From Clostridia bacterium (GTDB lineage Bacteria; Bacillota; Clostridia; Christensenellales; DUVY01): DNA of 40,055 nt. A program made the translations under genes and the position numbers. Shown here one piece after another: positions 13,088-15,701 of this stretch. The stretch covers positions 1-40,055 of the forward strand of contig DATCJR010000013.1 of NCBI GenBank assembly GCA_036562685.1, read 5' to 3'. Positions within the stretch are counted from its first letter, which is position 1, and each line of letters starts with the position of its first letter. The notes beneath the pieces were generated by a model. The model was not told the DNA's origin. It did no database searches and worked only from the letters and a program-made list of their open reading frames with translations.

Positions 13088-13516
13088 TTACATGTAATAG
13101 ACATTAAATACATCAGTATCGATAATGGGCATAATTGGTCTAGGCTTTTTTCTGTTTGTTCTTGGATCTCTATGTTCAGGTTTATTTATAGGATGAATTT
13201 TATAATCATTATTGTTGTTTTGATAATTTGATTTTTCTAAATCATCATTCTGATCAAGATATGCATTGTCTTCATTGGGTTCTTGAGGTAGTGTAGTGTC
13301 ACTATCAGAAACTACATATTGTCCATGTTTTAGACTTTTTACAATATTACCATTATCGTTTTGAATTGAGTACTCAATATAAACAATATTTAGCTTAGGC
13401 TTATTTTCTACAACTTCTTCTTGCATGCCGTCAGCAAAAACATTTTTGGAGCTGATATTTATTATAGTTCCAGTCAATAATCCTAAAGATAATAATAGAA
13501 CTAATAATTTTTTCAT
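13088..13516 (-). CDS. Small secreted protein of unknown function
   Basis: A 142-residue protein I cannot assign to a family. It has a clear signal peptide: MKK, a leucine-rich core (~4-18) and a likely signal peptidase I site after the NVFA near residue 32. The mature part is about 110 residues. A short beta-prone stretch (LNIVYIEYSIQND, ~46-58) is followed by an acidic, Asn-rich linker (~72-105) and a basic, proline-rich end (HRDPRTNRKKPRPIMPII). There are no cysteines and no membrane anchor after the signal. AAGGAGG precedes the ATG with good spacing, so it is a real gene. It is divergent from the spoVA operon, with 150 bases between the two starts, and converges on serS. A role at the spore or cell surface is only suggested by position. 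Confidence 0.75.
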   Translation of the reverse strand: MKKLLVLLLSLGLLTGTIINISSKNVFADGMQEEVVENKPKLNIVYIEYSIQNDNGNIVKSLKHGQYVVSDSDTTLPQEPNEDNAYLDQNDDLEKSNYQNNNNDYKIHPINKPEHRDPRTNRKKPRPIMPIIDTDVFNVYYM

Positions 13517-13611
13517 TAGTTTTTTCCTCCTTGTTTGCCTTTATTTTTTGCAAAAATTTGGAAATTATTTATTTTTAATTCAAAAGTTATATTTAACGAT
13601 AAGTTAATAAT

Positions 13612-13641
13612 GAATATTAGCTTCTAGATTTTGGGATATTA
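13612..13641 (+). promoter_or_regulatory. Sigma-G (or sigma-F) like promoter of the spoVA operon
   Basis: GAATA (13612-13616), 18 bases, then GATATTA (13635-13641) preceded by GG. The Bacillus sigma-G pattern is GHATR, about 18 bases, then CATnHTA; only the first base of the -10 differs. It lies 26 bases before the first start codon of the operon, as expected for a forespore-specific transcript. Confidence 0.5.
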
Positions 13642-13666
13642 ATATCAAAAAGAAAAGGAGCTAAAT

Positions 13667-13786
13667 ATGAAAGTTTATAAAGATAAACAGAATCCGTTTT
13701 CCAATATAGAAGACACAGAATCAGTAATAAAAAGCACGTTTGTAGAGGAGAAAAATCATGGAGATACCCAGCGGAGAAAAGTTTAA
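13667..13786 (+). CDS. Putative 39-residue small protein leading the spoVA operon
   Basis: An ATG at 13667 preceded by AAAAGGAG (13653-13660) opens a 39-codon frame beginning MKVYKDKQNPFSNIEDTES and ending at TAA 13784-13786. It overlaps the first 29 bases of spoVAC in a different frame. It is charged and hydrophilic, with no membrane helix and no cysteine, and I recognise no family. The ribosome-binding site is as good as those of true genes here, and the spoVAC ribosome-binding site lies inside it. It may encode a small forespore protein, or act as a leader peptide that couples translation to spoVAC. Its reality depends on conservation that cannot be checked here. Confidence 0.45.
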   Translation: MKVYKDKQNPFSNIEDTESVIKSTFVEEKNHGDTQRRKV

Positions 13787-14240
13787 GGAAAAGCATAAAG
13801 AACGAAATAAAAAATATACCGATTATGTAGAACTTGTCTCACCTAAGCAAACTACATGGAAATCTTTATTTAATGCCTATTGGATAGGCGGTTTGATTTG
13901 CTTGCTTGGGCAAGTGCTTTTTGATTTGGCAAGATTGATATTTAAGGTGTCAGAAGATAAGGCATCGACTATTGCCCTTATTGTTTTGATATTTTTAACT
14001 GCACTTTTAACAGGCATAGGTATATTTGATAAGATAGCGTATTATGCAGGTGGTGGTACATTTTTGCCCATAACAGGGTTTGCTAATGCTATTTCTAGTG
14101 CTGCAATAGAATTTAAGGCGGAAGGGCTAATTTTTGGTCTTAGCAGCAAATTTTATACAGTAGCTGGACCAGTAATAGTTAATGGAATTTTGTCTTCATT
14201 TATAGTGGGATTGATATATTACATAATAGGCTTATTTTAG
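13758..14240 (+). CDS. spoVAC: Stage V sporulation protein AC
   Basis: A 160-residue integral membrane protein with a charged N-terminus (~1-38) followed by four to five hydrophobic helices. The family motif GGGTFLPITGFANAISSAA is at ~97-115 and GLIFGLSSKFYTVAGPVI follows. SpoVAC forms part of the inner-membrane channel that moves Ca-dipicolinate into the developing spore and releases it at germination; the Bacillus protein behaves as a mechanosensitive channel. GAGGAG precedes the start. It is the first recognised gene of spoVAC-AD-AE, eight bases ahead of spoVAD. It shares fold and motif with SpoVAE downstream. Confidence 0.95.
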   Translation: MEIPSGEKFKEKHKERNKKYTDYVELVSPKQTTWKSLFNAYWIGGLICLLGQVLFDLARLIFKVSEDKASTIALIVLIFLTALLTGIGIFDKIAYYAGGGTFLPITGFANAISSAAIEFKAEGLIFGLSSKFYTVAGPVIVNGILSSFIVGLIYYIIGLF

Positions 14241-14248
14241 GTGAAAAG

Positions 14249-15334
14249 ATGAGATTGTTTGATTTTGGAATAGAATTAGATATTAATTTAACAAAAGATA
14301 ATAAGACATTAAAAAGAACAAAAGCTAAAAACAGTAAGCAGATTGGTGAACAGACTATTGTTTTTCCCAATGAGCCCAAAATTTTTAGCAGTCATTCTAT
14401 AGTATCTCAAAAAGAAAAAGATGGTCCGTTTGCAGGATATTTTAAAGATGTTCTAAAAGATCCAAATTTTGACGAGAAGACATTTGAAAAAGCCGAGACC
14501 AAGATGTTTGTATATGCATTATATAATGCAATTAAGAATGCCGGTATAACCCAAAAGGATGTAGATGTCTTATTCTCGGGCGATTTATTGGCGCAAATTA
14601 TCTCGGCAAGCTATTGCGCTAGATTATTTGATATTTCTTATTTGGGAATTTATGGCGCTTGTTCTACTATGGCAGAAGGTTTGATTCTTTCGGCAATGAT
14701 GATCGATGGGGGCTTTGCAGAAATTGCGGCATGTGTTACAGGCAGTCATTACGCTACTGCCGAAAGACAATATAGAGGGCCTCTTGAATTGGGTGCTCAA
14801 AAACAAAAATACTCTCAACATACAGTTACAGCAGCTGCGGCAGCTGTAGTAGGACTTGTAAAAGAAGGAATAAAAATAACAAAAGCAACAATAGGCAAGG
14901 TAGAGGATTATGGAATTACAGACCCTGCCAATATGGGCGCAGCAATGGCACCCTCGGCCATGAGTACGCTAGTTCAATTCTTTGTTGACACAAATACAAA
15001 ACCGGATGATTATGATCTGATAGCAACGGGTGATTTAGGTAAGCTAGGAAGCGACTTGTTAAGACAGTTAATGGATGAAAAAGGTTATCATCTAGGACAA
15101 AATTATATGGACTGTGGTGCGGCCATTTATAGTCATGACCAGCATACTGCTGAAGGCGGAAGCGGTTGTGGATGCGGTGCGAGTGTATTGGATGCTTATA
15201 TCCTGCATAAGATGAAAAAAGGCGAGTATAAAAAAGTGATTTTTGCGGCGACAGGCGCGCTTTTGAGCACAATAATAACCCAGCAAGGAGAAAGCATGCC
15301 GTCGGTAACACATTTGGTTTTATTGGAGAGTTAA
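14249..15334 (+). CDS. spoVAD: Stage V sporulation protein AD
   Basis: A 361-residue thiolase-fold protein, somewhat longer than the ~338-residue Bacillus protein because of an N-terminal extension (~1-33, MRLFDFGIEL onward) before IVFPNEPKIFSSHSI. GIYGACSTMAEGL (~135-147) corresponds to the thiolase nucleophile loop, and MDCGAAIYSHDQHTAEGGSGCGCGA (split over ~288-312) is the conserved C-terminal signature. SpoVAD binds dipicolinic acid at the outer face of the spore inner membrane and is needed for its uptake; it is not thought to be an active thiolase. AGGTG lies before the ATG. It is cotranscribed with spoVAC and spoVAE. Confidence 0.96.
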   Translation: MRLFDFGIELDINLTKDNKTLKRTKAKNSKQIGEQTIVFPNEPKIFSSHSIVSQKEKDGPFAGYFKDVLKDPNFDEKTFEKAETKMFVYALYNAIKNAGITQKDVDVLFSGDLLAQIISASYCARLFDISYLGIYGACSTMAEGLILSAMMIDGGFAEIAACVTGSHYATAERQYRGPLELGAQKQKYSQHTVTAAAAAVVGLVKEGIKITKATIGKVEDYGITDPANMGAAMAPSAMSTLVQFFVDTNTKPDDYDLIATGDLGKLGSDLLRQLMDEKGYHLGQNYMDCGAAIYSHDQHTAEGGSGCGCGASVLDAYILHKMKKGEYKKVIFAATGALLSTIITQQGESMPSVTHLVLLES

Positions 15335-15335
15335 T

Positions 15336-15701
15336 ATGGAAACGCTGTTTATGTATCTTAAGGTTTTTTTAGTAGGCGGATTATTATGTTTGATAGCCGA
15401 AATTCTTATAATAAAAACTAAAATCTCATCTGCTAGAATTTTGGTTATCTTTTTGGTGGCTGGTGTTGTTTTGGAAGCGGTTGGTGTTTTTCAGTATCTA
15501 AAAGAATTTGCAGGAGCAGGAGTTAGTGTACCCATCATGGGCTTTGGCAGTTCACTTGCAAAAGGTGCAATAGAAGGGGTAAAAACAGACGGACTAATTG
15601 GAGCATTTAGCGGAGGTATTATAAAAACTGCAGCAGGAATAGGTGCAGTTACGGTGTTTTCATACATAGTAGCACTTATATTTAATCCAAAAAGCAAATA
15701 G
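15336..15701 (+). CDS. spoVAE: Stage V sporulation protein AE (SpoVAEb type)
   Basis: A 121-residue membrane protein with three to four hydrophobic helices. GAGVSVPIMGFGSSLAKGA (~52-70) and GLIGAFSGGIIKTAAGIG (~77-94) align with the same region of SpoVAC, consistent with the shared Pfam family of the two channel subunits. It starts one base after the spoVAD stop, with GGAGAG inside the end of spoVAD, so the three genes are tightly coupled. Role: dipicolinate channel of the spore inner membrane. Confidence 0.95.
   Translation: METLFMYLKVFLVGGLLCLIAEILIIKTKISSARILVIFLVAGVVLEAVGVFQYLKEFAGAGVSVPIMGFGSSLAKGAIEGVKTDGLIGAFSGGIIKTAAGIGAVTVFSYIVALIFNPKSK

Follow-up and report, generated by a model that had tools for sequence, protein, structure and literature searches.

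A conserved short frame preceding spoVAC in Clostridia, a candidate partner of the SpoVA channel

Dipicolinic acid, which the SpoVA channel takes up into and lets out of the spore by loading and release, is a basis of spore heat resistance and of germination. At the head of the spoVA genes in the clostridial DNA analysed here (the window, 40,055 nucleotides) lies an unlisted frame of 39 codons, which raises the question whether it is a gene and, if so, whether its product serves the channel or its translation sets the dose of SpoVAC. A preliminary description of the locus, made from the sequence alone, had proposed an undescribed forespore micropeptide or a coupling leader. The product of the frame is referred to as peptide A.

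Position and conservation of the frame in the genus

The peptide A frame (MKVYKDKQNPFSNIEDTESVIKSTFVEEKNHGDTQRRKV, 39 codons, plus strand) extends over 13667–13786, from an ATG at 13667 to a stop codon at 13784–13786 as read from the sequence, and is also supported by profiles, constraint and census. The core motif of the peptide is N-x-[ED]-[DE]-x-E...K. The ribosome-binding site, AAAAGGAG (13653–13660, plus strand), lies 6 nt before the ATG; frame, site and start codon are found exactly where the preliminary description had put them. Its statement that the frame holds the spoVAC ribosome-binding site and overlaps the beginning of that gene was likewise confirmed: GAGGAG (13745–13750, plus strand) lies within peptide A codons, and the last 29 nt of the frame (13758–13786, plus strand) are shared with spoVAC, which starts at the ATG at 13758.

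Downstream on the same strand are spoVAC (13758–14240; PF03862, 8.5e-36; TIGR02838, 4.8e-49), spoVAD (14249–15334; PF07451, 5.1e-130) and spoVAE of the SpoVAEb type (15336–15701; PF03862, 3.2e-27; TIGR02839, 1.6e-34, under its cut-off), and yunB is also among the downstream genes by Pfam and NCBIfam. Upstream of spoVAC the window has neither spoVAA nor spoVAB, and peptide A is the first gene. A search of its own genome gave no second copy, the one place found being the gene itself. Divergent from the spoVA operon, a 142-aa frame with a signal-like N-terminus is present on the minus strand (13088–13516); it matched no Pfam or NCBIfam family above cut-off. Since 58 frames of at least 25 aa overlap the surrounding 5.5 kb of the window, the length of the peptide A frame is by itself no evidence for a gene.

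Upstream of the frame on the plus strand, TGAATA (13611–13616) and GATATTA (13635–13641), separated by an 18-nt spacer, form a forespore-type promoter-like site, which by its consensus we take to be sigma-F/G-like. A sigma-70 scan, the scope of which does not include promoters of this type, gave no site at 13611–13641. Of the sigma-G-like promoter of the preliminary description, the hexamers are present and kept in three species, and the sigma class is an assumption from consensus.

When SpoVAC was used as the query against 40 relatives, two sister species (L002 and L003) were obtained. Neither has lost the frame, its start or its ribosome-binding site, the events that would have spoken against a gene, and neither carries a frame-breaking indel. 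In both, a colinear 39-codon frame in the same register and with the same start is present with zero indels inside; the 29-nt overlap with spoVAC is identical, the promoter hexamers and their spacing are kept, and a purine-rich site occupies the position of the ribosome-binding site. The GAGGA of spoVAC is retained in 3/3 species of the genus. In this genus peptide A is the first cistron and has a conserved promoter-like site ahead of it.

Synonymous and non-synonymous changes were compared in the 90 bases not shared with spoVAC. In the peptide A frame, the three pairwise species comparisons, of 90 nt each, gave pN/pS 0.20, 0.55 and 0.39, every value being rough owing to the few sites; the other two frames over the same bases gave 0.76–1.27 and contain stops. 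The comparison reveals amino-acid constraint in the frame, which the other two do not show and which is laxer than that on spoVAC (pN/pS 0.10–0.16). These values are supportive, not decisive.

Distribution of peptide A within and beyond the order

Small frames upstream of spoVAC in other families share the core N-x-[ED]-[DE]-x-E with K or P after it. A 16-seed profile was scanned against every frame, on both strands, around spoVAC. The top-scoring frame occupied the slot before spoVAC in 66/87 non-seed loci of the order, part of which come from the same families as the seeds, against 13.1 expected. Outside the order, the top frame was in the slot at 20/70 loci (8.6 expected). In the named set, a 33-member profile placed it there at 30/75 loci (8.2 expected) and the 16 seeds at 26/75; many SpoVAC relatives thus lack a recognised peptide A copy.

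The 33-member profile (A3) was also run against 297 whole genomes from the order, free of any positional prior. With the limit set at E 0.1, it found 88 places in 86/297 genomes, 33 of these places being the training members. Of the 55 held-out places, in genomes that often share a genus or family with training members, 48 lie just before spoVAC. Nineteen of the 55 were judged by spoVAC coordinates and 36 by fetched DNA; the 48 comprise the 19 coordinate-judged places, 26 that passed a strict rule and three others in which the match continues beyond a stop, its end lying -1 to 52 nt from the start of spoVAC. Among the rest, one (G429) is on the same strand, 576 nt upstream, one (in G478) is truncated by a contig end, and five are elsewhere (G589, G499 twice, G547 and G601), none of them with E below 0.0295. 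With the limit tightened to E 0.01, 38/40 held-out places are in the slot.

In a census calibrated on decoys, peptide A was recognised at the 95th-percentile cut in 90/117 loci of the order (52/79 held out; decoys 6/117) and in 27/30 families. At the 99th percentile the values were 82/117 loci, 44/79 held out and 25/30 families, with decoys at 2/117. Together with the held-out places in the slot, the census bears out the expectation of a conserved peptide upstream of spoVAC. At the 5% decoy cut, peptide A was unrecognised in 27/117 order loci, and families f28 (3 loci), f30 and f26 (1 locus each) gave no recognised copy at the same cut. The peptide is short and fast-diverging: its length is 25–53 aa in 66 listed members, and a single residue is invariant among the 33 A3 members.

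Several other features were seen around these loci. The gene end directly upstream of peptide A in L008, L015, L021, L023 and L027, with a C-terminus like VSQVQISRIE, resembles that of a sigma-factor gene, presumably sigF or sigG. In L072, a frame at 1338–1926 encodes SpoVAC with a long N-terminal extension containing NLEES, which might represent a peptide A-like sequence fused to SpoVAC; the score is very weak. A second small family, 'B', grouped by eye with no profile, is often about 45–70 aa long with one hydrophobic segment and lies upstream of spoVAC or spoVAA; many of its members have a KIPSRGVFV- or GAxFV-like motif at their end. It was noted upstream of spoVAC in L163, L170, L173, L174, L182, L183, L184 and L186, and, within the order, in L071, L073, L074, L078, L083, L086, L087, L092, L096, L103, L116 and L123, preceding peptide A in L071, L073, L074, L087 and L103. 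Before spoVAA it occurs in L317 (269–427) and L323 (2655–2846), and these two, when tested, matched no Pfam family over cut-off.

In two families outside the order of the window, f36 and f81, a longer version, M-x-x-Y-x-x-I-P-...-N-x-E-E-K-E-x-R-x-D-L, is found, and the gene order there is spoVAB, peptide A, spoVAC. An alignment (A5) was made from five rows of this type and five rows from the order of the window. Compared with A3, with zero common rows, it gave E 3.3e-5 and a probability of 72%, which is not a pure cross-order test as A5 includes five members of the window's order. A class-wide A5 search of 391 genomes returned 18 places. The nine strongest are all before spoVAC (five of these nine are training members), and two lie directly after spoVAB in family f73. 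The other seven (E 0.014–0.08) have no spoVAC within the DNA fetched around them and lie away from the spoVAB site of f73; we regard them as chance matches.

Room for peptide A between spoVAB and spoVAC varies. In L041, L159, L166, L175 and L255 spoVAB is only 18–85 nt before spoVAC, leaving little or no room; in L168, L189 and L244 a gap of 154–374 nt follows spoVAB, and peptide A was unrecognised in it. In L317 and L323, the two loci of f73, the gene of a small membrane protein is followed by spoVAA, spoVAB and then peptide A. The next gene is spoVAEa in L323 and a dodecin gene in L317. The genomes concerned (G136 for L317 and G249 for L323, both 96% complete) gave zero matches to SpoVAC/SpoVAEb or SpoVAD. 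As these two genomes carry peptide A in the absence of such matches, the peptide is not tied to SpoVAC alone. On the simplest reading, peptide A would be an old operon member next to spoVAB.

Translation, transcription and competing explanations

Among 66 loci examined, 58 have a called spoVAC start, and in 49/58 the frame overlaps spoVAC; a gap of 0–30 nt is present in 3/58 and one of 39–180 nt in 6/58. Start codons were chosen by a simple Shine-Dalgarno rule, so that single overlap values may be wrong. Given the overlap at 49/58 loci, translational coupling of peptide A and spoVAC is plausible.

In 13/66 loci (L014, L021, L104, L110, L118, L122, L124, L125, L126, L133, L137, L145 and L149), a forespore-type promoter pattern, G[CT]AT[AT]-N14-19-CA[ATC][ATC][AT][ATC], ends 6–8 bases before the peptide A ATG. 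Base shuffles gave 0.21 expected, an optimistic figure as the pattern was picked after these upstream sequences had been inspected. The spacing predicts a leaderless forespore mRNA at these loci, and twelve of the 13 have no Shine-Dalgarno-like site. Such a site is present in another 34/66 loci, and 19/66 have neither feature. In the genus of the window itself, a leader with a Shine-Dalgarno site precedes the frame.

Family and fold searches were carried out on the peptide. No Pfam or NCBIfam family was found for the window peptide, and PHROGs gave zero matches for four members. Over the 33 A3 members there was one match each to RemA-like (Pfam, E 0.036), RemA (NCBIfam, E 0.015) and PRK04323.1 (E 0.031); these were rejected as chance, given 33 queries. 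A PDB sequence search gave a single match at E 0.22. Profile comparison of peptide A with SpoVAC showed no similarity, and PF12164 and PF13782 were unmatched by the window peptide, by the 33 A3 members (E 0.05) and by the two f73 copies. Charged residues make up about 41% over 66 members, and no hydrophobic stretch was seen on inspection. Confidence in the AlphaFold model is low (mean pLDDT 58); it shows a single helix, at 14–30, likewise of low confidence.

The peptide A frame is very likely a real gene, as conservation of frame, place and motif exceeds chance. It is very likely also a member of the spoVA operon: in the window it shares the strand of spoVAC and overlaps it, and in several loci the order is spoVAB, peptide A, spoVAC. 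That a frame of this size should be open by accident would not be surprising in itself where 58 frames of at least 25 aa overlap 5.5 kb, but an accidental frame devoid of function is highly improbable here, with frame, place and motif all conserved and the whole-genome A3 search arguing strongly against it. Still less probable is a decayed remnant of a spoVAB or spoVAA lost from the lineage. Peptide A does occupy the place that spoVAB has in other clostridia, but an intact-looking spoVAB precedes it in L024, L047, L053, L061, L090, L093, L154, L157 and L224, it comes after spoVAB in weaker or unscored form in L012, L107 and L153, and in both f73 genomes it follows spoVAB; origin as a SpoVAB remnant was rejected on this co-occurrence. 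Its location at the transcript's 5' end could also point to a regulatory leader peptide or an RNA element of the operon, such as an attenuator or a riboswitch-like structure. This is very unlikely, as the peptide has no run of a single amino acid and its gene is internal, after spoVAB, in f81, f36 and f73. A structured RNA element or attenuator was rejected since Rfam has no family for the window element, the RNA folding z of -1.15 is not unusual, and the two terminator-like sites (1.6 expected) are both inside spoVAC.

Two further explanations grant that the frame is translated. Translation could serve to open or feed the spoVAC start and thereby set the dose of SpoVAC, the peptide sequence being inert; the overlap, identical in three species of the genus and frequent elsewhere by the start heuristic, and the location of the spoVAC ribosome-binding site within the frame would agree with such a coupling leader. 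Coupling by itself would not, however, preserve N-x-E-D-x-E, and the amino-acid motif is recognised in 27/30 sampled families; moreover, the peptide ends 39–180 nt before spoVAC in 6/58 loci and follows spoVAB in two genomes that gave no spoVAC match. Thus the coupling part of the preliminary proposal is plausible, and a pure leader, which we regard as rather unlikely, is insufficient given the conserved peptide and the loci with a gap. Alternatively, a conserved forespore small protein may merely share the operon and have a job unrelated to the channel, for example as a core or protease-regulating peptide. We hold this to be unlikely: clear copies adjoin spoVA genes, with 48/55 held-out places of the order and the nine strongest class-wide places at spoVAC and two more directly after spoVAB, although the promoter common to peptide A and spoVA would suit such a protein equally, the sequence gives no pointer to membrane or channel, and the two f73 genomes have the peptide without SpoVAC or SpoVAD.

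The frame is conserved and under purifying selection, and its location, ahead of spoVAC or between spoVAB and that gene, is conserved as well. Of the forespore micropeptide proposed in the preliminary description, the gene and its conservation are strongly supported, and forespore expression is suggested by the promoter-like sites.

Possible role and comparison with known systems

From its genomic association, the most likely single explanation is that peptide A works with the SpoVA channel. On balance, we think it probable that peptide A represents an undescribed small-protein family, long established in the clostridial spoVA operon, which is made in the forespore as a partner of the SpoVA channel and coupled to SpoVAC. 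According to this model, RNA polymerase with sigma-F/G would transcribe the spoVA operon in the forespore, and the ribosome would take peptide A first and then re-initiate at the overlapping spoVAC start. The peptide, which is highly charged, would remain at the forespore membrane on its core side and may bind SpoVA proteins there, as a partner in assembling or gating the dipicolinic acid channel. A bolder form, for which we see the case as evenly balanced, is that of an ancestral, overlooked subunit or regulator of the SpoVA channel in Clostridia of more than one order, first on the mRNA, often leaderless, and kept where spoVAA and spoVAB are missing upstream and where spoVAC and spoVAD are missing. 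If true, peptide A would be a missing part of the reduced clostridial SpoVA, which has SpoVAC, SpoVAD and SpoVAE only and no SpoVAA or SpoVAB. It occurs in a large bacterial group known mostly from uncultured genomes and belongs to a class of genes easily overlooked by annotation, being short, overlapping and partly without a Shine-Dalgarno site.

Tiny, easily missed sporulation proteins are represented by SpoVM, CmpA and MciZ. Peptide A resembles them in its very small size, but has no Pfam or NCBIfam match to such families, and their genes presumably lie in a genomic neighbourhood different from its own. SpoVAA and SpoVAB of Bacillus and some Clostridia are like peptide A in being encoded in the same operon and on the same side of spoVAC. 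In f73, however, SpoVAA is about 200 aa and SpoVAB about 140 aa (PF12164 and PF13782), whereas peptide A, at 25–53 aa, matches neither, and where spoVAA and spoVAB both occur it stands after both. In the accessible part of one paper, spoVAA and spoVAB are outside the universal set of spore formers (PMC3533761).

The main text of a gut small-protein study (PMC13376575) makes no mention of spoVA. Among the literature matches listed, which leave small-protein catalogues and most subscription papers outside their scope, the accessible text holds no description of such a gene. The family looks undescribed, and entries in small-protein catalogues may exist.

Leaderless clostridial transcripts have the start codon at or near the 5' end and no Shine-Dalgarno site, and the available parts of the reports describe them as rare in the species measured: 15 candidate genes in C. 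difficile (PMC7438776) and about 2–3% in solventogenic clostridia (PMC9045289). In comparison with these measured sets, the matching promoter spacing at 13/66 copies of one gene is a prediction only.

A close known counterpart is the operon of C. difficile, which according to the accessible text has only spoVAC, spoVAD and spoVAE, with spoVAC first (PMC5156672, PMC4959285), and belongs to the forespore gene set with a SigF-like promoter (PMC7438776). Like the operon of the window, it is without spoVAA and spoVAB; directly upstream it has a forespore promoter (PMC4959285, PMC5156672, PMC7438776), the site in the window being forespore-type by its consensus. In the available parts of these descriptions spoVAC is the first gene and no preceding small gene is mentioned, whereas in the window peptide A comes first.
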